Source: Acidocella sp. (lineage in GTDB: Bacteria; Pseudomonadota; Alphaproteobacteria; Acetobacterales; Acetobacteraceae). From it: a DNA stretch of 64,000 nt. Location of the stretch: the NCBI GenBank assembly GCA_026224875.1, contig JAMFRU010000100.1, positions 1-64,000 on the forward strand, given 5' to 3'. Below the pieces are notes generated by a model that saw only the letters and a list, made by a program, of their open reading frames with translations, made no database searches and was not told the DNA's origin. Positions within the stretch are counted from its first letter, which is position 1; every line of letters begins with the position of its first letter. Shown piece after piece: positions 3,949-52,024 of the stretch. Both the position numbers and the translations under genes were made by a program.

Positions 3949-4110
3949 GGGCGCAGGGATTAACCTTTTTGGCGCTCGAAGGGAAGCAGATCGTCACAAA
4001 GGCTTCATGCCGGCGCTCATGCCAAGCGGGGCTTTCCCCGGCGCGGCGGCTTTGTTACGGTTAAGCAGGCGCACCGTTCCGGGGCACCAACCACTCGTCC
4101 AGGAGCACGA

Positions 4111-4896
4111 ATGTCCCCCATCATCCAGCGGCTGCGCCATGATAACGAGCTTGTTTACAAAATCTTCCTGATGATTTTCGGCAGCATGTTCTGGCTGATC
4201 CTGCTTTTCGGCCTGTTGGGCGCACTCGCCAAGCACGACAACAAAATATTGCTCGACTATATCCTCTACGGCCTCGGCATCCCGGCCTTTATCCTCATCT
4301 CCGCCGCACTCTACCGGGCGCGCGCCTATGGCAACATGATCCTGCTCGGGCCCAAACAACTCCCCGAACTTTACCAGGCCGTCGTCGAAGGCGCGGAAAA
4401 ACTCAGCCTGCCGGTGCCGCAGGTGTTCCTGTACAATTCCAACGGGGTGATGAACGCCTTCGCCCGCCGGCTGCTGGGCGGGCGCTACGTGTTTCTCACC
4501 TCAGCACTGGTGGAAGTACAAAACGACGCGCAGGTGCGCTTCGTCATCGGCCATGAGCTCGGGCACCATGCCGCCGGACATCTGGACCCCATGAAAAACC
4601 TCATCATGCTTCCCGGGCATTTCGTGCCGTTTCTGGGCAAGGCCTATTCGCGCACGCGGGAATATACATGCGATTCCATCGGCGCCTTTCTGTGCGGCGA
4701 TCCGGCCGCGGCCGAAAGCTCGCTGCAGATGCTCGGTTGCGGCTGCCAGCGGCTGAATGCCAGCCTGAACGGCGAGGCCTTCGTGGCGCAGGAACAGATG
4801 ATGCCGCCCGTGGCCGGCTTCGTGGCTGAGATTTTCCGCACCCATCCGCGGCTCACACGCCGTGTGCTGGCTTTGCGCGGGCCACGGTTGGATTAA
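4111..4896 (+). CDS. membrane-bound M48 family zinc metalloprotease
   Basis: Two N-terminal membrane helices (about residues 17-40 and 50-68) precede an M48 peptidase domain. The zinc motif HELGH is at 148-152, and the third ligand is probably Glu184 in the REYTCDSIG motif. The domain resembles HtpX/Ste24-type proteases that degrade misfolded membrane proteins, though it is shorter (261 residues) than classical HtpX and I do not assign that name. The start is set by CCAGGAGCACGA before the ATG. It stands alone, convergent with queG. Confidence 0.85.
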   Translation: MSPIIQRLRHDNELVYKIFLMIFGSMFWLILLFGLLGALAKHDNKILLDYILYGLGIPAFILISAALYRARAYGNMILLGPKQLPELYQAVVEGAEKLSLPVPQVFLYNSNGVMNAFARRLLGGRYVFLTSALVEVQNDAQVRFVIGHELGHHAAGHLDPMKNLIMLPGHFVPFLGKAYSRTREYTCDSIGAFLCGDPAAAESSLQMLGCGCQRLNASLNGEAFVAQEQMMPPVAGFVAEIFRTHPRLTRRVLALRGPRLD

Positions 4897-4904
4897 CAAA
4901 AGCG

Positions 4905-4939
4905 GCAGCTTTTTGAAAAAAGCTGCACCAAAAACTTTT
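4905..4939. terminator. hairpin between convergent M48 protease and queG genes (partial triple-hairpin element)
   Basis: The stem GCAGCTTTT/AAAAGCTGC is followed by CCAAAAACTTTT. This matches one end of the larger elements at 12730-12841 and 27966-28075 but lacks their GGCCCTGTGGGC core. A bidirectional terminator is the likely role. Confidence 0.6.
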
Positions 4940-5975
4940 AATTTAGGCTTAGGCGGCGCACGGCCCAGGCGCCAGCTTCCGCTACCATGGCGTTTTCATC
5001 CGCCGCCAGGGCCAACGCCGAAGGCAGCAAAGCGGGGGCGGCGCTGTTGCCGATTGCTATGGCGACGTTGCGCACAAACCGGTTGCGGCCACTGCGTTTT
5101 ACCGGCGAGCCCGAGAATTTTTCACGAAAAGCGGCATCATCCAGCAAAGCCAATTCCGCCAGCAGTGGGGCGGTAAGGTCCTCGCGATGGTGCAGTTTAA
5201 CCTCATGCCCGGCGGCGGCAAACTTGTTCCAAGGGCAGACCGCCAGGCAATCATCACAGCCGTAAATCCGGTTGCCCATAGCGATGCGAAACTCTTCGGG
5301 GATCGGCCCGTCATGCTCGATGGTGAGGTAGGAGATGCACCGGCGCGCATCGAGCCTGTACGGGGCGGGAAAAGCATCGGTCGGGCAGGCAGAAAGACAG
5401 GCATGGCAGGTGCCGCAATGGTCTTCGGCGGGCGTGTCCGGGGCGATGTCCAGCGTGGTGAAAATCTCACCCAGAAACAGCCACGAACCATGTTCGCGCG
5501 AAACCAGATTGGTGTGCTTGCCCTGCCAGCCCAGCCCAGCCTGCTCTGCCAGGGGCTTTTCCATCACCGGCGCGGTATCCACAAACACTTTCACACCCTC
5601 GCCCAACGCCGCGATGTATTGCGCCAGATGTTTGAGCTTGCCCTTGATGATATCGTGATAGTCGCGGTTGCGAGCATATACGGAAATATTGCCGACTTCA
5701 GGCTTTCTCAGATTTTCCAGCGAATCCATACCCGGGGCATAGGAAAAGCCGAGCGAAATGACGGACAGCGCCTCGGGCCAGAGCATCTGCGGGTCAGCGC
5801 GTTGCTCAGCGCGCTCTGCCATCCATCCCATGGTACCGTGGTGCCCGGCCGTTAAAAAATCCTGCAACCAGCGCCGGCGCTCCGGCGGCAGGCTGGCGCG
5901 TGTAAACCCCGTGGCGGCGAAGCCAAGGACCTCGGCGCGGGCGGCGATTTTCGCTTTAAGGTCAGCCCCGGCCAC
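4938..5975 (-). CDS. queG: epoxyqueuosine reductase
   Basis: QueG reduces epoxyqueuosine to queuosine in tRNA using cobalamin and two 4Fe-4S clusters. The paired ferredoxin-like motifs [12 protein letters not shown] and CDDCLAVCP are present, and the C-terminal region is HEAT-like. I place the start at the GTG at 5975 (345 residues, product beginning at [14 protein letters not shown]), because upstream codons overlap queF deeply and look unlike the family. This leaves a 14-base overlap with queF, the last step but one before it in the pathway. Confidence 0.92.
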
Positions 5976-6426
5976 GATACGACGGCACGTCCTGGCTCGG
6001 AATCCAGGCGCCCTCGGGCGGGTTGCCGGTCTGCCAGAATACATCGATGGGAATACCGCCGCGCGGATACCAATACGCACCTATGCGCAGCCATTTGGGC
6101 GCCAGCAAATCGATCAGCCGGTCCGCGATCATCAGCGTACAGGCTTCATGAAACCCGCCGTGATTGCGGAAGGAATGGAAAAACAGTTTGAGCGACTTGC
6201 TCTCCACCAGCCACTCATCGGGAATATAGTCGATAACGATATGCGCGAAATCCGGCTGTCCGGTCATCGGGCAGAGCGAGGTGAATTCCGGGCAAACGAA
6301 ACGCACCATGGCATTCTTGCCGCCCGTCTCCGCCGCCACGCGCTCCAGCACGGCGTCATCCGGGTTGGCCGGCGCCGCGGTTTTGGCGCCCAATTGTTGC
6401 AGCCCGGCGTAGCGGTCTTCGTTCAT
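5962..6426 (-). CDS. queF: NADPH-dependent 7-cyano-7-deazaguanine reductase
   Basis: QueF reduces preQ0 to preQ1, the base that Tgt inserts into tRNA. The family signature [15 protein letters not shown] is at residues 46-60, with catalytic Cys52 and Asp59, and the substrate-binding ESKSLKLF segment follows. At 154 residues it is the short unimodular type. Its ATG overlaps the tgt stop by 4 bases and its end overlaps queG. Confidence 0.96.
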
Positions 6427-7541
6427 GGTTCGGTTCCCTGGGTCCAGCCATCGCGGACATTATCGCAATAGGTGGTGTATTCGCCAGCAAGAATATTTTT
6501 GCGCGCCCCCTGCATCAGCGACTGGTAGTAGGTGAGGTTGTGCGCGGTAAGCAGCATCGGCCCAAGCATCTCCTCGCAGCGGAACAGATGATGCAAATAC
6601 GCCCGGGTATGGCGCGTGCAGGCCAGGCACGGGCAACCTTCGTCCAGCGGCCTGCTGTCATCCTGAAATTTGGCATTACGCATGTTGAAAATACCGCGCG
6701 AAGTAAACGCACGGGCAGTGCGGCCGGCACGCGTCGGCATCACGCAGTCGAACATATCCACCCCACGCGCCACGGAGCCAAGCAGGTCATCGGGCGTGCC
6801 CACACCCATGAGGTAGCGAGGCTTTTGCGCCGGCAGCAGGTCCGTGGCGTAATCCAGCACCTCGAACATCGCCTCCTGGCCCTCACCCACGGCAAGCCCG
6901 CCGATGGCATAGCCTTCAAATTCCAGCTCGCTCAGCGTGGCAGCCGACTCCTGGCGCAAATCCTTGAAGGTAGAGCCTTGCATGATCCCGAACTGCCCAT
7001 AACCCTCGCGCCGCACAAACGCATCGCGCGATCGCTTGGCCCAGCGGGTGGAGAGGCGCATGGACACCGCCGCCTCCTCATGGGTCGCGGGAAACTTCGT
7101 GCATTCATCCAGCACCATGGTGATGGTGGCATCCAACTGATACTGAATTTCCATCGAGCGCTCAGGCGTGAGGTGATACGCCGTACCATCAATATGCGAT
7201 TGGAACGTCACCCCGGTTTCATCCAGCTTGCGCAATTTGGCGAGCGACATAATCTGGAAGCCGCCGGAATCCGTCAGGATCGGCCCAGACCAGTCCATCA
7301 TTTTATGCAAACCACCCAGCCGCGCCACACGCTCGGCACCGGGCCGCAGCATGAGGTGATAGGTATTGCCCAGCACGATGTTGGCACCCGTCGCGCGCAC
7401 GGCATCGGCGGTCATCGCCTTCACCGTGCCGGCGGTACCGACGGCCATGAAGGTGGGGGTGGGAACATCGCCATGCGCGGTATGCAGCAGGCCTGCACGG
7501 GCTGCGCCGTCCTTGGCCAGAAGATCAAACGAGAAACTCAT
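6423..7541 (-). CDS. tgt: queuine tRNA-ribosyltransferase (tRNA-guanine transglycosylase)
   Basis: Tgt exchanges guanine 34 for preQ1 in the anticodons of tRNA Asp, Asn, His and Tyr. It has DSGGFQ at the active site, the DCVMPTR segment carrying the nucleophilic aspartate, and the zinc site [16 protein letters not shown]. At 372 residues the length is normal. Start and stop codons overlap queA and queF by 4 bases each, so the operon should be translationally coupled. Confidence 0.97.
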
Positions 7542-8560
7542 GCGCGCTCCAGCAAACAGGCATCGCCATAGGAATAAAAACGATATTTGGCGCCGATGGC
7601 ATAGGCATAAGCGCTCCGGATGCGCTCTATACCAGCAAAAGCGGAAACCAGCATCAGCAAGGTCGATTTCGGCAGATGAAAATTTGTGAACAGCAAATCC
7701 GCGACTTTGAAGCGGTAGCCGGGAAGGATAAAAATATCGGTTTCGGCATCGAAGGGATGGACCACGCCCGCATCGTCGGCAGCTGATTCGATCAGCCGCA
7801 ACGCCGTGGTGCCGACAGGAATAATACGCCCCCCCGCCACGCGCGTTGCATTGATTTTGTCCGCCACATCCTGCGTCACAAAGCCACGCTCGGCATGCAT
7901 CACATGCTGCGACAAATCCTCAACCCGCACCGGCAAAAACGTGCCCGCACCCACATGCAAGGTAACCCGCACAATTTCCACACCACGCGCCTGCAATGCC
8001 GCCAGAAGCTCCGGCGTAAAATGCAGCCCCGCCGTGGGGGCCGCAACCGCGCCCTCATGCGCCGCGAACATGGTCTGATAATCAGCCTTGTCGCGCTCGG
8101 TAACCCCCTCCGGCCGGGCGATATAGGGCGGCAATGCCAGCGCCCCACTGCGCGCCAGCGCGGCATAAAAATCATCCGCCACAAACCGCAAATAAGCAGC
8201 CCCGCCTTCCAGAACTTCCAGCACCTCAGCCGAAAATTCCGGATCAATCACCAGCACATCACCCGCCCGCACACGCTTGGAGTTACGCAGCAAAACCCGC
8301 CACGAACCATCATCCAACCGCCTGTCCAGCGTAATCCCAATCTTCGCCTCGCCACGCATGGCAGAGAGCTGTGCCGGGATCACCTTGGTATCATTCACCA
8401 CCAGCAAATCGCCGGCCCGCAACAGCCCCGGCAAATCCCGCACCACATAATCCGCCAGCCCAGCGCCCACATGCAGCAACCGCGCGCTATCCCGCGGCCG
8501 CGCCGGCTCAACGCCAATGCGGTCAGATGGCAGCTCGTAATCGAACTCAGATAAATTCAT
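7538..8560 (-). CDS. queA: S-adenosylmethionine:tRNA ribosyltransferase-isomerase
   Basis: QueA transfers the ribose of SAM onto preQ1 in tRNA to give epoxyqueuosine. The N-terminal [19 protein letters not shown] and C-terminal [16 protein letters not shown] segments are diagnostic, and 340 residues is typical. It lies between the VOC gene and tgt. No usable Shine-Dalgarno is seen. Instead, the start codon sits in the 3' arm of a perfect 12-base-pair hairpin (8551-8582) whose 5' arm contains the stop codon of the upstream gene. Confidence 0.97.
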
Positions 8561-8582
8561 GGCGCGCGGCCCATGAATTTAT
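8551..8582 (-). promoter_or_regulatory. hairpin burying the queA start codon
   Basis: ATAAATTCATGG at 8551-8562 is perfectly complementary to CCATGAATTTAT at 8571-8582, with an 8-base spacer. In the minus-strand transcript the upstream VOC gene's stop codon lies in the first arm and the queA ATG in the second. Ribosomes finishing the upstream gene could open the stem and allow queA translation. The structure is seen directly; the function is inferred. Confidence 0.6.
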
Positions 8583-8974
8583 GCCCCGAGATACGATGCG
8601 AGTTCGATCAGATTACCATCTGGATCGCGGCAATAGACGGACATGATATCCCCCAGCGCGCCAATGCGCGACACCGGCCCGCGTTCAATGGAAACACCAC
8701 ACGAGTGCAACTGTGCAATGACATCTTCCGGCCCCACGGCAACCACAAGGCACAAATCCAGCGTCCCCGGCTTGGCCTCATGCGCGTGCGGGACAACCTC
8801 GTGCCCCACCTCGTGCAAATTAATCTTCTGCGCCCCGAAACGCAGCGCGGTACGGTTTTTACCGCCGTATTCCTCGCGTTCCATGCCCAGCACGCGCTGG
8901 TACCAGCCGGCGGTTACTTGTAAGTCGCGGCAGGTCATCACGACATGGTCGATGCGGTCTACGGTGAATTTCAT
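8579..8974 (-). CDS. VOC (glyoxalase/bleomycin resistance) family protein
   Basis: A 131-residue single-unit VOC fold protein: the N-terminal IDHVVMTCRDLQVTAGWYQRVLG and C-terminal CRDPDGNLIELASY motifs match metal-binding vicinal-oxygen-chelate proteins, with His and Glu ligand positions present. The ATG follows TGAGGTATC. It sits 6 bases after fumarase and 18 before queA in the same orientation. Substrate is unknown; lactoylglutathione lyase-like or fosfomycin-resistance-like roles are both possible. Confidence 0.85.
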   Translation of the reverse strand: MKFTVDRIDHVVMTCRDLQVTAGWYQRVLGMEREEYGGKNRTALRFGAQKINLHEVGHEVVPHAHEAKPGTLDLCLVVAVGPEDVIAQLHSCGVSIERGPVSRIGALGDIMSVYCRDPDGNLIELASYLGA

Positions 8975-8980
8975 GATACC

Positions 8981-10627
8981 TCAGGCAAGATCGGCAAAGA
9001 AATCATTGCCTTTGTCATCAACCACGATGAAGGCGGGGAAATCCTTAACCTCGATTTTCCACACCGCTTCCATGCCAAGCTCCGGATACTCCAGAATCTC
9101 GACTTTCGTAATGTTATTCTGCGCCAGCACCGCGGCCGGCCCGCCAATGGAGCCGAGATAGAAGCCGCCATATTTATGGCAGGCATCACGCACGGCTTTG
9201 GAGCGATTACCCTTCGCCAGCATCACCAGCGACCCACCGGCTGCCTGGAATTCATCCACATAGGAATCCATACGCCCGGCAGTCGTGGGGCCAAAACTCC
9301 CCGTAGCCAGACCTTCAGGCGTCTTCGCCGGGCCGGCATAATAAACGGGGTGATTTTTAATATACTCCGGCATGCCCTGCCCGGCATCAAGGCGCTCTTT
9401 GAGCTTGGCATGAGCAATATCGCGCGCCACGACGATGGTGCCAGTCAGCGCCACCCGCGTCTTAATCGGATATTGCGAGAGCTTGGCCAGAATATCCGCC
9501 ATCGGCTGGTTCAAATCGATCGCCACCACATCCCCGCCCAGATGCTCTTCAGTAATCTCAGGCAAATATTTTTGCGGGTTAGTCTCCAGCTGCTCCAGAA
9601 ACACGCCGTCCTTGGTAATCTTAGCCTTAACCTGGCGGTCGGCGGAGCAAGAAACCCCCAGCCCAATTGGCAAGCTCGCACCATGGCGCGGCAGGCGGAT
9701 CACCCGCACATCATGGCAGAAATACTTGCCGCCAAACTGCGCGCCAATACCGATGTTCTGCGTCAACTCCAGCACTTTACGTTCCATCTCCAAATCGCGG
9801 AAAGCATGGCCGGTAGCATCGCCGGTGGTGGGCAAATGATCGTAATATTTGGTCGAGCCCAGCTTCACCGTCTTCAAATTCAGCTCAGCCGAAGTACCGC
9901 CGATAACGATACACAGATGATACGGCGGGCAAGCCGAGGTCCCGAGCGTTTTAATCTTCTGTTCCAGAAAATTATAAATTTTCTCGGGCGTCAAAACCGC
10001 CCGGGTTTCCTGAAACAAATAAGTCTTGTTCGCCGATCCACCGCCCTTGGCAATGAACTGCAGATGAAATTCATCCGCATGATACTCGCCTGGCTGCGCC
10101 ATAATGTCGAACTGCACCGGCAGATTGTTGCCCGTATTCTTCTCATCGAACATGGTAATCGGCGCCATCTGCGAATAACGCAGATTGGTCTCGGTATAGG
10201 TGCGCGACACACCCCAGGAGAACGCCTCCTCCTCATTGCCCTCAACCCACACACGCTGGCCTTTTTTGCCAAACACCATCGCCGTGCCGGTATCCTGGCA
10301 CATCGGCAAAACGCCGCGCGCCGCAATCACCGCATTCTTCAAAAACTCCATCGCCACATAGCGGTCGTTCTCGGAAGCTTCGGCATCGTCGAGAATCTTC
10401 GCCAACTGCGCCAAATGCGCCGGCCGCAGCAAATGCGAAACATCATGAAACGCCGCAAACGCCAGCTCCGAAAGCGCATCGCCGGTCACCTTAAGCACCG
10501 TCTTGCCCTCAACCTCGATGGTGCTCACACCAGCGATATCAAGCTTGCGATAAACCGTCGTGTCCTCGCCCAGCGGGAACATCGGCGAATAGGCGAAACC
10601 GGGACTGCGTTTGCTTGTCGCGTTCAT
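8981..10627 (-). CDS. class I fumarate hydratase
   Basis: Iron-sulphur fumarase of the FumA/FumB family, which interconverts fumarate and malate in the TCA cycle. At 548 residues it has both the N-terminal tartrate-dehydratase-alpha-like domain (with the [18 protein letters not shown] cluster-ligand segment) and the C-terminal beta-like domain ([18 protein letters not shown]). It begins 5 bases after sspB. Class I enzymes are oxygen-sensitive; no class II fumC is present in this window. Confidence 0.94.
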
Positions 10628-10632
10628 GGGCT

Positions 10633-11139
10633 TTAGTCTTTCTGTCTCTTCCGGAAAGCATCCAGGCTTACCACATCGGCGGGGCCGTCATTCGGGCGCG
10701 AGGGTACGTCATCGCCCTCCGGCTCCGGTATTTCCGCAATCACCACCGGCTCGGGAATCGTCACCTCAAACTGCAGGCCAAAGCGCACTTCCGGGTCCGC
10801 GAAGCTGGTAATCGCGGTAATGGGGATGATCAGCGTCGAGGGTATGCCGGAAAAGCTCAAGCCCACGGATACGGCATAGCCGGCATCGTCCACGCTCAGC
10901 CCATGGTACTGGTGCTGCAGCACAATCGTCATCTCATCGGGATACTGCACGCGCAGCCGCTCGGGTATCTGCACCCCCGGGTAATTGGTCTTGAAGGTGA
11001 CGTAAAAATGATGACCGCCCGGCAGCCCCTGCACCTCGGCATGGCGCAGCGCGCTCACCACCACATGGCGCAGCGCATCCTGCGTCCACTCATCATAGGG
11101 CAATAGCGATTCCGGTACGCTCAGATCATCATCAGCCAT
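10633..11139 (-). CDS. sspB: SspB-type ClpXP adaptor protein
   Basis: Alphaproteobacterial SspB delivers ssrA-tagged and other substrates to ClpXP. The substrate-binding domain contains [16 protein letters not shown] and [13 protein letters not shown]. An acidic linker leads to a C-terminal tail, [13 protein letters not shown], that resembles the ClpX-docking motif. I chose the ATG at 11139 (168 residues) over a start six codons upstream because AGGA precedes it at proper spacing and family members begin near here. Confidence 0.9.
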
Positions 11140-11177
11140 TCTGCAATCCTTGTGCAAACCGTCTACAAACGCCGCGG

Positions 11178-12014
11178 TTAACGCGCTTCGCGCTCGTAAT
11201 GCCGGTAATATTTATCGGTGACCAGATCGGTCTGCACCACAATCGAAATATCGGTGGTGTTGAACTGATGGTCGATAACCGCCCCTTCGCCGACAAACCC
11301 GCCCAGGCGCAAATAGCCTTTTACCAGCGGCGGCAGGCGCAGCAATGCCTGTTTGGGGTTAACCTCTTCCGGGTCGGTACGGCGCATTTCCACATAACGG
11401 CTGGGCAGCGCGCGCGGGCGGATCGCCTCTGGTGCCATATGGTGGGTGGCCAGGTAAGTCAGCTCGCCGGCCAACGCATCCGGGTCCGTGCCGGCGAGGC
11501 TGGCGCAACCGAACATCAGGTCGATGCCATAATGGAACACATAGGCCGCGATGCCGCGCCACAGCAGCTGCATCACCGAGCGGCTGCGGTAGGCCTCGGC
11601 CGTGCAGCTGCGCCCCAGCTCCAACGTGCGGCCGGGGAAATCCTTGAGCATCGAAATATCGTACTCACCCTCGGAATAGAAACGCCCAAACTTCAGCGCC
11701 GGCTCTTCGCGGATCAGCCGGTAGGTGCCGACAACGCTGCTCGCCCCCTCACCAAGGTCGTGGTCCACAACCAGCAGATGGTCGGCAATGGCGTCAAACT
11801 CGTCGCAATCGCGGTGGCTGGCCGATGTCGCCGCATCCGCTTTGGCGCCCATTTCCCCGTAAAATACCTGGTAGCGCAGGGCCTGCACCGCATCCAGCTC
11901 ATCAGCACTCACCGCCAGCCGCACACCCAGATTGCTGGCACGCAGCTCGGCAAAACCGGGGGCGGCGTTACCGACGGTAAAACGCGGCAGGCCGGATACG
12001 ACGTTCTGGTTCAC
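11178..12014 (-). CDS. GNAT-fold N-acyltransferase, OlsB-like (ornithine lipid synthesis)
   Basis: The 278-residue protein matches the L-ornithine N-alpha-acyltransferase family: VQALRYQVFYGEMG, a TLELGRSCTAEAYRS motif, and FGCASLAGTDP followed by a long C-terminal extension. OlsB transfers a 3-hydroxyacyl chain from ACP to ornithine, the first step of ornithine-lipid formation in phosphate-poor or acid conditions. The second-step enzyme OlsA is not in the window, so the exact role is inferred. Its ATG overlaps the fur-family stop by 4 bases. Confidence 0.82.
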   Translation of the reverse strand: MNQNVVSGLPRFTVGNAAPGFAELRASNLGVRLAVSADELDAVQALRYQVFYGEMGAKADAATSASHRDCDEFDAIADHLLVVDHDLGEGASSVVGTYRLIREEPALKFGRFYSEGEYDISMLKDFPGRTLELGRSCTAEAYRSRSVMQLLWRGIAAYVFHYGIDLMFGCASLAGTDPDALAGELTYLATHHMAPEAIRPRALPSRYVEMRRTDPEEVNPKQALLRLPPLVKGYLRLGGFVGEGAVIDHQFNTTDISIVVQTDLVTDKYYRHYEREAR

Positions 12015-12421
12015 TTGGCGGTCCGCCGGCCGTACAGCTCGATTTTAATGACATCGAGATCAAACCCCTGCCCCGCCGCGATATCGCGCAGCATCGCCTC
12101 TGCCTGGGGGGCGGAAAATTCGACAACCGAGCCATTATCCTTATCGACCAGATGGAAATGGTGCTTATCGGCACTGGGCTCATAGCGGGCACGCCGGCTG
12201 CCGAGGTCCCGGCGCGACAAAATTCCCTTTGCTTCCAACAACCTAACGGTACGGTACACGGTCGCGAGCGAAATCCCCGGATCGACGCGATTCGCCCGCC
12301 GGTGCAGCTCGTCCACATCCGGGTGGTCGGTCGCCTCGGACAACACGCGCGCAATCACCCGGCGCGGGCCTGTCATCTTCAACCCGTTCTCTATGCACAG
12401 GCGCTCGATGCTTATATCCAT
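12011..12421 (-). CDS. Fur family metal-responsive transcriptional regulator
   Basis: The N-terminal winged helix is visible (LKMTGPRRVIARVL, then PGISLATVYRTVRLLEAKG). The dimerisation domain carries the HHFHLVDKDNG zinc/iron-site segment, although the second CxxC zinc pair of classical Fur is missing. Homologues start near MDISIERLC, so I use 12421, preceded by AAGG at 7 bases. An ATG at 12484 with a GGGAGG site is a real alternative and would overlap tusA. It heads the fur-olsB-sspB-fumarase series. Iron versus manganese or haem (Irr) sensing cannot be decided. Confidence 0.88.
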   Translation of the reverse strand: MDISIERLCIENGLKMTGPRRVIARVLSEATDHPDVDELHRRANRVDPGISLATVYRTVRLLEAKGILSRRDLGSRRARYEPSADKHHFHLVDKDNGSVVEFSAPQAEAMLRDIAAGQGFDLDVIKIELYGRRTAK

Positions 12422-12471
12422 CGGGGAGCCTTGTGGCCCAAGTTGTTGCTCCGGTCCAGCCTTATCAGAGA

Positions 12472-12726
12472 ATGAATATGCCATTATCCACCCTCCCAGC
12501 GCATGACAAAGCCATAGATATCACAGCCGAAACCTGCCCCATGACCTATGTGCGCACGCGGCTGGCGCTGGATACGATCGAGACCGGGCAAATCCTGCTG
12601 GTGCGCCTCAAAGGCGAAGACCCGTTGCGCAACGTGCCGCGGGCGGCGGCTGACCAGGGGCATGACCCGTTGGAGCTGCTGGAGCAGGACGATGGGAGCT
12701 GGCTTTTAGTGATTCAGAAGGGCTAA
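12472..12726 (+). CDS. TusA/SirA family sulfur-carrier protein
   Basis: A small protein (about 84 residues) with the TusA motif: ITAETCPMTYVRTRLALD carries the conserved cysteine of the C-P-x-P-type sulfur-binding site, here CPMT, so the second proline is missing. TusA-like proteins pass persulfide sulfur, for example to tRNA thiolation or sulfur oxidation enzymes. Start choices are 12472 or 12478 (MNMPLST or MPLST). It is divergent from fur and ends at a triple-hairpin element convergent with rpsU. Confidence 0.85.
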   Translation: MNMPLSTLPAHDKAIDITAETCPMTYVRTRLALDTIETGQILLVRLKGEDPLRNVPRAAADQGHDPLELLEQDDGSWLLVIQKG

Positions 12727-12729
12727 GCA

Positions 12730-12841
12730 GTACCTTTTTGTGAACAAAAAGATACCTAAAAAAACTTTGGCCCTGTGGGCGTTGGCCTAACCAACGCCCA
12801 CAGGGCCAAAAGTTTTTGGTCCAGCTTTTTCAAAAAGCTGG
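12730..12841. terminator. triple-hairpin bidirectional terminator element between tusA and rpsU
   Basis: Three consecutive hairpins lie here. The first is GTACCTTTTTG/CAAAAAGATAC. The second is a long stem with core GGCCCTGTGGGCGTTGG (12769-12785) against its complement at 12791-12807, flanked by A and T runs. The third is CCAGCTTTTT/AAAAAGCTGG. The same design is found at 27966-28075. A/T runs on both sides suit termination from either direction. Confidence 0.75.
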
Positions 12842-12846
12842 AAACC

Positions 12847-13050
12847 TTAGAAGCCTTCGCGCTCGATGCGCTTGCGCTCCATCTTGCGGGCGCGGCGTAC
12901 AGCCTCGGCGGCTTCGCGCGCGCGGCGCTCGGAGGGCTTCTCATAATGGCGGCGGAGCTTCATCTCGCGGAACACACCCTCGCGCTGCAGCTTCTTCTTG
13001 AGCGCCTTGAGCGCCTGGTCGACATTGTTGTCACGAACGAGAACTTGCAC
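12847..13050 (-). CDS. rpsU: 30S ribosomal protein S21
   Basis: The product, [20 protein letters not shown] after initiation at GTG 13050, is typical S21, with the basic [14 protein letters not shown] tail of the alphaproteobacterial form (67 residues). Upstream in-frame codons are unlike the family. GGAG lies 11 bases before the start. S21 joins the small-subunit platform and influences initiation. It is divergent from the def-COQ9 pair, the arrangement that gave the COQ9 family its bacterial name. Confidence 0.95.
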
Positions 13051-14444: not shown

Positions 14445-15704
14445 TTGCAAACCCGTCTCCGCCTTGCCGCTTGCTTTGTCGCAACTGCCTCCCTCACCCT
14501 GCTCACCAGCTGCGGCGTTGGCCATAGTGTCGGCCACCAGCTGCTGGGGTGGAACTCCACTGGCGCCGCCAGCAGCACGCAAACCGTGTTCGGCTACGCC
14601 GTGGCCGATGAACCGCAGGCCGCCATCGTGGCCCGGCAAATCCTTAACCAAGGCGGCAATGCGGCCGACGCCGCGGCAGCCGCCGGCTTTGCCCAGGCGG
14701 TAACCCTGCCCTCACGCGGCGGCCTCGGCGGCGGCGGCGCCTGCCTCATCAAAATGCCCGACAGCACCGGCAAGATGCAGCCGCCCGTCGCCCTCATATT
14801 CCCCGCCGGCGCCCCTTCTGCTTCGGGCGGCGACCGCCCCGCCGCGGTGCCAACCCTGGCGCGCGGCCTGCTGGCCATGCAGGCACGCTTCGGCCTGATG
14901 CCCTCCGCCTCCGTCGTCGTTCCGGCCGAACGCCTGGCCGCCAGCGCCCAGCTCTCCGCCGTGCTGGAAACCGACCTGCAAACCGTCGGCCCGGCTTTGC
15001 TGGCAGACCCCGCCGCCGGCACCATTTTCGCTCCCAACGGCACGCTGCTGCCCGCCAACGCCACACTGCAGCAGCCGGACCTCACCGCCACGCTGGAAGT
15101 GCTGCGCACCCAAAGCATCCAAGGCTTCTACGCAGGCAGCTTCGCCCAAACCTTCGTTACCGCCGCGGACGCCGCCGGTGGCGGCCTGACCATCGCCGAC
15201 CTCACCGCCATAGCACCGCAATACGCCAACCCGATTATCAGCAGCGCCGGCGGTTACGCCGTCGCCAGCCTGCCCACCACCACCGCCACCGTGGAAACCC
15301 TGCCCGCCTCCGCCGGCTTCATGGCGCTCGATAAAAACGGCGGCAGCGTCATCTGCGTCACCTCCATGAACAACCTCTTCGGCACCGGCCGCATCGCCGC
15401 CGGCACCGGCCTGCTCCTCGCCGCCTCCCCCCGCACCAACCCCACCCCGGACCTGGCCGCCGCAATGGCCTATCTGCCCGGCTCCCTGAACTTCCGCGCG
15501 GCCACCACCGGCACCGGCCAGGCCGCAGCCACCCAGGCCGCCACAATCGGCCTAGCCAACGCCCTAACCAAAACCCAAGCCCCCATCCCCCCCCCAGGCC
15601 GCACCAACACCATCTCCTGCCCCGGCACAGTCCCCGGCGGCGAAGCCACCTGCACCGCTACAGCCGACCCGCAGGGCCAAGGCCTGGCCATCGGTGGGCG
15701 GTAG
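14445..15704 (+). CDS. gamma-glutamyltransferase-like lipoprotein, probably altered or inactive
   Basis: A signal peptide with lipobox LLTSC (Cys23) suggests an outer- or inner-membrane lipoprotein. GGT-like segments follow: NQGGNAADAAAAAGFAQAVTLPSRGGLGGGGA (residues about 68-99, longer than quoted cores in relatives), and later FMALDKNGGSVICVTSMNNLFGTG. At the place of the nucleophilic Thr-Thr-His the sequence reads Ser289-Ala-Gly, and the oxyanion Ser-Ser pair is Ala-Ala (326-327). At 419 residues it is much shorter than active GGTs (about 550-600). The start is TTG after AGGGG. The 3' end is extremely C-rich. Confidence 0.6.
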   Translation: MQTRLRLAACFVATASLTLLTSCGVGHSVGHQLLGWNSTGAASSTQTVFGYAVADEPQAAIVARQILNQGGNAADAAAAAGFAQAVTLPSRGGLGGGGACLIKMPDSTGKMQPPVALIFPAGAPSASGGDRPAAVPTLARGLLAMQARFGLMPSASVVVPAERLAASAQLSAVLETDLQTVGPALLADPAAGTIFAPNGTLLPANATLQQPDLTATLEVLRTQSIQGFYAGSFAQTFVTAADAAGGGLTIADLTAIAPQYANPIISSAGGYAVASLPTTTATVETLPASAGFMALDKNGGSVICVTSMNNLFGTGRIAAGTGLLLAASPRTNPTPDLAAAMAYLPGSLNFRAATTGTGQAAATQAATIGLANALTKTQAPIPPPGRTNTISCPGTVPGGEATCTATADPQGQGLAIGGR

Positions 15705-15916
15705 GTTAGGTAAAAAAGGCCAGGGCTCTGCCCTGGACCCGCTGGGGCCTGAGGCCCCAGACCCCCGTTACTTTTTTAAAGGGTTTGAAAGGGGCCTGCC
15801 CTTGCCTGTGGAAAGGCTTGGTGGCAGGCCCCTTTCAAACCCTTAAAGTCATGGGATCCAAGGGCCTTTCGGCCCTTGGCGGGTCCAGGGCAAAGCCCTG
15901 GCCTTTTTACCTAACC
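15704..15916. repeat. 213-base nested palindromic element
   Basis: The outer arms of about 40 bases (GGTTAGGTAAAAA, then GGCCAGGGC...GCCCTGGACCCGC, and the complement ending TTTTTACCTAACC) are near-perfect inverted copies. Inside are smaller hairpins (TGGGGCCTGAGGCCCCA) and a second inverted pair around 15774-15860 built on AAGGGTTTGAAAGGGGCCTG. It starts at the stop codon of the upstream gene. It could be a strong terminator, a non-autonomous mobile palindrome, or both. Confidence 0.75.
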
Positions 15917-15927
15917 AAGCACCACCC

Positions 15928-22114: not shown

Positions 22115-22264
22115 CAGACACTCCGTAAAAAGACGATGTAAAAGATGCGGGCGATTCCGGCTACCCTATGCGCGCGGCCGGGGTTTTAGGTCAAGTTACA
22201 GGGGACCATAGGCTGCCCGGCGTTATTGGGTGGGAGGGTGGATTGAACCGCCCAACGCCCACCC

Positions 22265-22342
22265 CGTCATTCCCGCGTGCGCGGGAATCTCCTCCCACCC
22301 ATGCCGTGGGAGTGACAGATTCCCGCTTGCGCGAGAATGACG
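22265..22342. repeat. interspersed palindromic repeat (CGTCATTCCCGCG type), copy 2
   Basis: CGTCATTCCCGCGTGCGCGGGAATC opens a unit closed by GATTCCCGCTTGCGCGAGAATGACG, with CTCCCACCCATGCCGTGGGAG-like pairing in the middle. It occupies the gap between fdxA and the S4-domain gene; the rest of this 250-base gap shows nothing else. Confidence 0.7.
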
Positions 22343-22370
22343 GGTTTTGCGAGAACCGGGATAACGGCGG

Positions 22371-25222: not shown

Positions 25223-25305
25223 CGTCATCACGAGCGTAGCGTGGCGATCCATCTTTTCTGGTCGTGGTGAGAAAGATGGATCACCACGCTGCGCTCGTGA
25301 TGACG
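25223..25305. repeat. long inverted repeat between the helicase and AbiTii-domain genes
   Basis: The arms of about 35 bases beginning CGTCATCACGAGCG and ending in the complement CGCTCGTGATGACG are nearly perfect, and the loop is short. It shares the CGTCAT/ATGACG ends of the other interspersed palindromes but has a different body. It marks the left border of the AT-rich gene at 25359-26255. Confidence 0.75.
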
Positions 25306-27965: not shown

Positions 27966-28075
27966 GTTACTTTTTTGTAAAAAAGTAACCAAAAAACTTT
28001 TGGCCCTGTGGGCGTTGGCCGCGCCAACGCCCACAGGGCCAAAAGTTTTTGGTGTCGCTTTTTTCAAAAAGCGAC
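27966..28075. terminator. triple-hairpin bidirectional terminator between the SDR gene and sucB
   Basis: Hairpin one is GTTACTTTTTT/AAAAAAGTAAC. The second has core GGCCCTGTGGGCGTTGGC (28002-28019) against 28023-28040, with AAAAAACTTTT/AAAAGTTTTT flanks. The third is GTCGCTTTTT/AAAAAGCGAC. The middle core is identical to that at 12769-12807, while the outer stems differ but keep pairing. Confidence 0.78.
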
Positions 28076-51946: not shown

Positions 51947-52024
51947 CGTCATTCTCGCGCAAGCGGGAATCTGTGACTCCCATGGCCGTGGGAGCCAGAG
52001 ATCCCCGCTTGCGCGGGGATGACG
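51947..52024. repeat. interspersed palindromic repeat (CGTCATTCTCGCG type), copy 3
   Basis: CGTCATTCTCGCGCAAGCGGG at the start and CGCTTGCGCGGGGATGACG at the end, with CTCCCATGGCCGTGGGAG pairing in the middle. It is the same family as those at 1671 and 22265. Confidence 0.72.

Follow-up and report, generated by a model that had tools for sequence, protein, structure and literature searches.

The VOC-queA junction

The window, by which we mean the whole analysed stretch of 64,000 nucleotides, comes from an Acidocella genome, a genus that we take to belong to the Acetobacteraceae. Its minus strand carries a queuosine operon in the order fumA-VOC-queA-tgt-queF-queG: fumA (8981-10627) is followed by a gene for a 131-aa glyoxalase-superfamily (VOC) protein (8579-8974; Pfam PF00903), queA (7538-8560), which specifies the tRNA preQ1(34) S-adenosylmethionine ribosyltransferase-isomerase (NCBIfam NF001140, 435 bits against a cut-off of 324), tgt (6423-7541; TIGR00430), queF (5962-6426) and a queG-like gene in the ORF listed at 4938-6080. 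The tgt gene overlaps the queA stop by 4 nt, and tgt-queF is a further 4-nt overlap.

At the VOC-queA junction, two 12-nt arms that are 100% complementary and separated by an 8-nt loop form a hairpin on the coding (minus) strand. The left arm in the sense of the transcript, CCATGAATTTAT (8571-8582), contains the TAA stop of VOC, and the right arm, ATAAATTCATGG (8551-8562), holds the queA ATG (8560-8558). The original prediction of a perfect 12-bp stem that links the upstream stop to the queA start is thereby confirmed on both counts. Perfect stems of 12 or more pairs with loops of 3-20 nt occur at a mean of 0.25 in 12 dinucleotide-shuffled windows, the tally in the window itself being 21 with long stems counted several times. 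The 141-nt transcript strand spanning 8500-8640 folds at -58.8 kcal/mol (z = -3.6, with 0/200 shuffles equally stable); the opposite strand at the junction also folds with z = -3.6. The exact hairpin is found once in the 3.87-Mb assembly.

The hairpin further encloses a five-codon ORF, ATG GGC CGC GCG CCA TGA (8574 to 8557, minus strand), specifying the peptide MGRAP. Stop and start lie as close together as in coupled gene pairs at both of its ends: it begins 4 nt past the VOC stop, and at the other end its TGA and the queA ATG merge into ATGA. Ahead of it, the GGGG in the VOC tail (8584-8587) provides a Shine-Dalgarno (SD)-like match, whose best duplex with the anti-SD, CGGGGCAT, has an energy of -5.0 kcal/mol and stops 6 nt short of the bridge ATG. 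For queA the upstream region offers no more than a weak SD match, at -2.4 kcal/mol. The left-arm ATG was considered as an alternative start of queA and dismissed, since it is 14 nt off and out of frame.

An Rfam search of 4000-13000 left 5263-8955 without a hit at E values up to 5, and a preQ1 riboswitch upstream of queA was rejected on this ground. A queuosine-sensing leader peptide rich in Tyr/His/Asn/Asp codons was also rejected: such a codon was seen by eye in five of six genomes with an 18-nt spacer, and MGRAP has none.

The bridging frame across Acidocella

We searched 38 genomes of the genus, found a queA match in 33 and examined 34 loci, in 32 of which both genes are visible. VOC and queA overlap or abut (-4, -1 or 0 nt) in 13 of the 32 and are spaced in the other 19. 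At 12 of the 19 spaced junctions the insert, 18-223 nt in length, is spanned by an ORF that starts 2-4 nt past the VOC stop and overlaps queA by exactly 4 nt. These bridges range from 5 to 74 codons: five in G000, G013, G009, G011, G002 and G022, 16 in G012 and G041, and 51, 66, 71 and 74 in G051, G007, G045 and G050, respectively. The distances from the bridge start to the queA start (14, 47, 152, 197, 212 and 221) are all 2 modulo 3, and the frame is conserved over inserts of variable length. The SD before the bridge start has an energy of -5.0 to -8.4 kcal/mol in 11/12 genomes, and that of queA is weaker in 10/12. Two genomes with spaced junctions depart from the exact form: G021 has an ATG 1 nt past the VOC stop in the frame of queA, and G049, represented by two contigs, has a short GTG-initiated ORF that ends 5 nt ahead of the queA start. 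No bridge is found in G006 (8 nt), G048 (15 nt), G004 (185 nt) and G042 (198 nt), the queA starts of the last two being uncertain.

The hairpin shows a different distribution. The closest relative of the window genome, G013 (95% QueA identity), is its sister in a two-gene tree of 33 of the 34 junction loci, in which the second G049 contig (L153) was dropped and the deep nodes are weak. This genome retains the bridge frame with a TTG start and without a hairpin over the queA start, whose start-codon pairing is 0.12-0.60. Across the 12 bridged genomes, the pairing probability of the queA start codon reaches 0.99 or more in nine and 0.86-0.94 in G050, and the pairing is inconsistent in G013 and G045. 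Four further genomes with 18-nt spacers retain a hairpin over the queA start; covariation between the arms is no greater than in shuffles, with two double-change pairs in the six 18-nt-spacer genomes against 2.1 in shuffles. The conserved feature is the bridge ORF and not the hairpin.

One locus is arranged differently. At L140 (G020:C14), a palindromic repeat comes after VOC and gives way to different sequence, and queA lies on another contig that begins inside a repeat; the operon was either split by inter-repeat recombination or the assembly is chimeric. By eye, the bridge frame after VOC in G020 runs into a TAG.

Giant-palindrome repeats

The long VOC-queA inserts are members of dispersed giant-palindrome repeats. 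For the insert of G050, 223 nt in length, there are at least 45 scored matches in the window genome and at least 46 in G013; one palindrome can match on both strands, and the scored matches thus stand for fewer copies. The 18-nt spacer of the window is, unlike this long insert, unique in its own genome. Ten repeat copies, each taken together with flanks of 45 nt, have folding energies of -175 to -258 kcal/mol, and in five of them (L155, L156, L170, L171 and L176) the pairing extends past the common core into copy-specific sequence. The outer arms of these five vary between copies yet are complementary within each, in L170 extending as far as the coding ends on either flank. This may reflect conversion between arms or selection on structure.

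With gene calls from a codon-trained gene finder, whose starts are sometimes misplaced (e.g., rsmD in L172), 26 of 39 copies are flanked by convergent and 13 by co-directional genes, and none by divergent ones; these 39 are what remained of 51 repeat loci after contig-end, duplicate and short hits were dropped. A count made on 40 of the 51 loci after the same kinds of hits were dropped found an ORF that starts within 12 nt of the stop and spans the copy at 10 of 61 adjoining gene ends. Three of these spanning ORFs bridge an NTGA to an ATGA, namely between rluB and rsmD (G050), between an ABC substrate-binding gene and its permease (G013), and between aguB and aguA (window genome). A spanning ORF at L214 ends 1 nt into a gene that by eye is gyrB-like. 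Nine of the 13 copies between co-directional genes have no bridge.

The window itself holds several such elements. A copy of the long-insert family with nested arms of 20-30 nt occupies 15697-15923, and long palindromes with CGTC ends or cores lie at 22256-22351, 25223-25305 and 51947-52024. A passage of a 2013 study (PMC3733652) gives CGTC repeats as absent from the Acetobacteraceae. Two copies of another long palindrome family, at 12746-12830 and 27972-28070, have GCCCACAGGGCCAAAAGTTTTTGG in common, and A/T-rich inserts that by eye resemble this family occur at the unbridged G004 and G042 junctions.

Bridges at other gene pairs

The three pairs with NTGA-to-ATGA spanning ORFs were each chosen after one bridged case had been seen, and were scored across the genus. 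Among 38 rluB-rsmD loci, 21 overlap, two have gaps of 0-8 nt, one is incomplete and 14 have inserts. All 14 inserts are bridged, 11 with a 4-nt overlap, one with a 1-nt overlap and two with a stop 3-4 nt before the rsmD start. The exact bridges extend from 5 to 99 codons, the TTG start assumed for G004 being uncertain. Inserts unrelated in sequence are crossed as well, among them gaps of 10 nt in four genomes and, in G013, an insert of the CGTCATTGCG type. The ABC-transporter pair, scored at 18 loci with at least 78% identity, has an exact bridge in 4/6 inserts. The aguB-aguA pair (38 loci) has one in 2/7 inserts, with one other insert being a contig artefact. In G007 an ORF also crosses the insert but, if aguA is taken to start at the homologous ATG, terminates within that gene. 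The design seen at queA thus recurs at these three pairs.

Four pairs were picked without a prior bridged case. None of five queA-tgt gaps (one a contig artefact) and neither of two fumA-VOC gaps is bridged, indicating that small gaps are tolerated without a bridge. The sole tgt-queF case, likewise unbridged, is an 11-nt overlap with no insert, and fur-olsB has no insert in the 30 loci scored out of 35 matching genomes.

The window genome alone has four exact bridges, of 5 codons before queA, 88 before rsmD, 86 before aguA and 48 before the permease. In its rsmD insert, the start-codon region pairs in the predicted fold with the other tip of the palindrome. The original prediction viewed the queuosine operon as an unusual place for such a device; the start region of rsmD, a gene unrelated to queuosine, is also paired by a palindrome, and the location is therefore not special to this operon.

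Pooling the four pairs, inserts of at least 90 nt are exactly bridged in 15/19 cases, or in 12/16 with the three index cases removed; the contig artefact at aguB-aguA (L303) is left out. Of eight dispersed copies examined in the homologous frame, none is both open and length-matched modulo 3. The difference gives a Fisher p of 0.0002, or 0.0013 minus the index cases, both values being optimistic because shared ancestry leaves fewer independent cases. Open frames are partly expected as the inserts are GC-rich: the probability of an open frame in shuffles is 0.34, 0.17, 0.22 and 0.32 for the four long palindromic queA inserts and 0.33-0.87 for the eight long rsmD inserts. With a probability of 0.29, the index cases removed and the inserts treated as independent, the binomial p is about 2e-4.

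Other genera and the origin of the spacer

Outside Acidocella we considered 49 loci from other genera of the family, of which 13 have no queA within 1.2 kb of VOC, three overlap, six have gaps of 0-8 nt and three are unscorable. An exactly bridging ORF is present in nine. In eight of these it is a gene of 177-182 codons matching Pfam Vut_1 above the cut-off, whose start lies at -4 to +4 nt relative to the VOC stop and which overlaps queA by 1 or 4 nt. Its start offset is +3 or +4 in five of the eight, the same as the usual offset of the Acidocella bridges. Vut_1 may be a queuosine-precursor transporter. A Vut_1 gene lies between VOC and queA at L386, L391, L396, L397, L399, L404, L407, L420 and L149. 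No Vut_1 match occurs in any of the 38 Acidocella genomes in a search that was positive in 9/14 control genomes. In the remaining exactly bridged locus, G269, a six-codon ORF, MGGRAP, runs between VOC and queA from a TGATG to an ATGA. Nine loci of the other genera have gaps of 10-63 nt, one with this exact bridge, one with an ORF abutting the start (L387) and seven with neither.

The 18-nt spacer may have arisen either as a palindromic-repeat stub or as a scar of Vut_1, and the two may also have followed one another if repeats inserted into the scar. The scar origin is compatible with the relay proposed below and posits that the Acidocella ancestor lost the interior of Vut_1 by an in-frame deletion, so that its start and stop survive as the mini-ORF, with the repeats arriving later. 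We consider it a real possibility, while leaning somewhat against it. The gene of about 180 codons between VOC and queA at eight loci of other genera, its absence from Acidocella (0/38 genomes with a match) and its shared start offset of +3/+4 at five of those eight loci speak for it, as does the presence of the 18-nt form in two clades, which on this account recurs because it is old, together with the similar six-codon ORF of G269. Conversely, the G013 spacer and the right tip of the G050 insert have CCCCTTGCG in common at the same place (30/200,000 shuffles), which speaks for the repeat stub; the bridges at rsmD, aguA and the ABC permease require no lost gene; and five codons are too short for a test of homology.

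The relay model and its alternatives

We propose that the 18-nt spacer is a relay cistron that couples the translation of queA to that of VOC. From the sequence comparisons we hold this to be probable, a judgement that concerns the relay itself and not either origin of the spacer; the relay model is independent of which of the two holds. With its start hidden by the hairpin, queA would be reliant on ribosomes supplied by the preceding gene. On terminating at the VOC stop, a ribosome would reinitiate 4 nt on, at the ATG of the five-codon ORF, aided by the GGGG of the VOC tail. Translation of MGRAP would then open the hairpin, and termination on the ATGA that forms the queA start would be followed by reinitiation there. 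As the start is hidden and the SD is weak, queA should be a poor site for de novo initiation, and, if it is, a translated bridge that both delivers the ribosome and opens the stem would be the economical reading. We infer the dependence of queA on the relay, the mechanism of reinitiation and unfolding, and selection for coupling as the cause of the pattern. The junction is best read as one case of a broader pattern, in which putative relay cistrons couple gene pairs across inserted sequence.

Translational coupling of VOC and queA, as originally predicted, gains from the 13/32 loci at which the genes overlap or abut and from the bridges at 12/19 spaced loci, and it is the route that needs revision: the simplest model had been direct reinitiation by ribosomes finishing VOC, and we prefer passage through the five-codon relay to a jump of 18 nt. 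That direct jump, with the mini-ORF as a by-product of the palindrome, seems to us rather unlikely. A left arm that pairs with CCATGA must carry an ATG, as CATG is self-complementary, and unbridged gaps of 10-63 nt do occur in some relatives; moreover, among the studies with more spacing tolerance listed in part of a review (PMC12548453), one reports no loss of coupling up to +25 nt. Yet the frame and its openness are maintained across inserts of 50-223 nt, G013 keeps its TTG-started frame without any hairpin, and the reporter results given in a portion of PMC10666635 have termination-reinitiation nearly abolished at a spacing of about 20 nt and reduced by 80-100% at 38 nt in E. coli. That the stop-less frame is instead a neutral trait of GC-rich palindromes, with coupling unselected, we judge unlikely. 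It draws on the shuffle probabilities of 0.17-0.87 per long insert and the spanning ORFs at 10/61 gene ends beside dispersed copies, and is countered by the contrast of 15/19 exact long inserts with 0/8 dispersed copies and by the binomial p of about 2e-4.

The hairpin had also been envisaged as a switch. A conserved regulatory element that hides the queA start until a signal or the translation of VOC opens it, the mini-ORF playing no part, would agree with the start-codon pairing of at least 0.99 in 9/12 bridged genomes and 0.86-0.94 in a tenth, and with the four more 18-nt-spacer genomes that have the hairpin. Against this, the closest relative lacks the hairpin, double changes do not exceed those in shuffles (2 versus 2.1), no Rfam family matches at the locus, and bridges are also found at rsmD, aguA and the ABC permease; a regulatory or queuosine switch is not supported, and we regard it as quite improbable. 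Hardly any weight falls on the palindrome as a protein-binding DNA site or transcription terminator. The bias of repeat copies to gene 3' ends (26/39 convergent, 13 co-directional, 0 divergent) would fit such a role, but a scan of 8300-9000 detected neither a promoter-like nor a terminator-like site at the junction, and termination here would sever queA-tgt expression.

Returning to the relay, we tentatively extend it to a conjecture about the repeats that we find somewhat doubtful: on entering NTGA stop-start overlaps, giant palindromes may double the NTGA and then survive in coupled pairs chiefly where they are translated as bridges, such that coupling would be carried by ribosomes reading near-perfect hairpins of about 200 nt. 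The two sources above (PMC10666635 and PMC12548453) present a debate over whether terminating ribosomes cross long gaps or need contact between stop and start. If the conjecture is true, these loci would constitute a natural experiment on how strictly coupling needs such contact. The natural inserts in coupled pairs are of many lengths, and the long ones are in frame, stop-free and joined in 15/19 cases, which favours the contact model. They also suggest that tiny ORFs, which readily escape notice, have a role here, and illustrate how repeats can enter operons without breaking them.

Comparison with known systems

By analogy, the closest known case to the relay bridges is that of the MIRUs (mycobacterial interspersed repetitive units), which have a direct-repeat structure. 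The present comparison is one of description, the 18 nt of the window being too short for a test of homology. In the relevant part of PMC12548453, MIRUs are mobile repeats whose ORF is coupled at -4 nt. A -4 overlap is similarly seen at the rsmD inserts, at 11/14 downstream and 13/14 upstream ends, and at the downstream end of 12/19 queA cases, where the upstream start lies instead 2-4 nt past the stop. Unlike MIRUs, the Acidocella inserts comprise several sequence types and vary in gap length from 10 to 292 nt, with palindromes predominating among the long inserts; most copies of the repeat lie elsewhere in the genome, and the relay peptide is by eye unconserved. Should palindromes indeed enter NTGA overlaps, they would represent a second, independent origin of the MIRU strategy.

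The bridges also resemble classical termination-reinitiation coupling at ATGA or TGATG, in that the relay meets queA at an ATGA and 13/32 relatives have overlapping or abutting genes, but here two hand-overs would occur in series via a five-codon ORF. The bicistronic design (BCD) of synthetic biology likewise uses a short leader cistron to deliver the ribosome to a structured start; the proposed Acidocella relay differs in being natural and in having its leader fed by an upstream gene. REP and RPE palindromes, according to an excerpt of PMC3733652, are dispersed at gene 3' ends, with RPEs also in frame inside genes. The Acidocella repeats are also dispersed palindromes at gene 3' ends, but their copies are near-perfect hairpins of about 200 nt, and it is in the spaces between genes, not within a gene, that they preserve the frame. 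In the titles and abstract openings of the literature searched, there is no published description of bridges of the Acidocella type.
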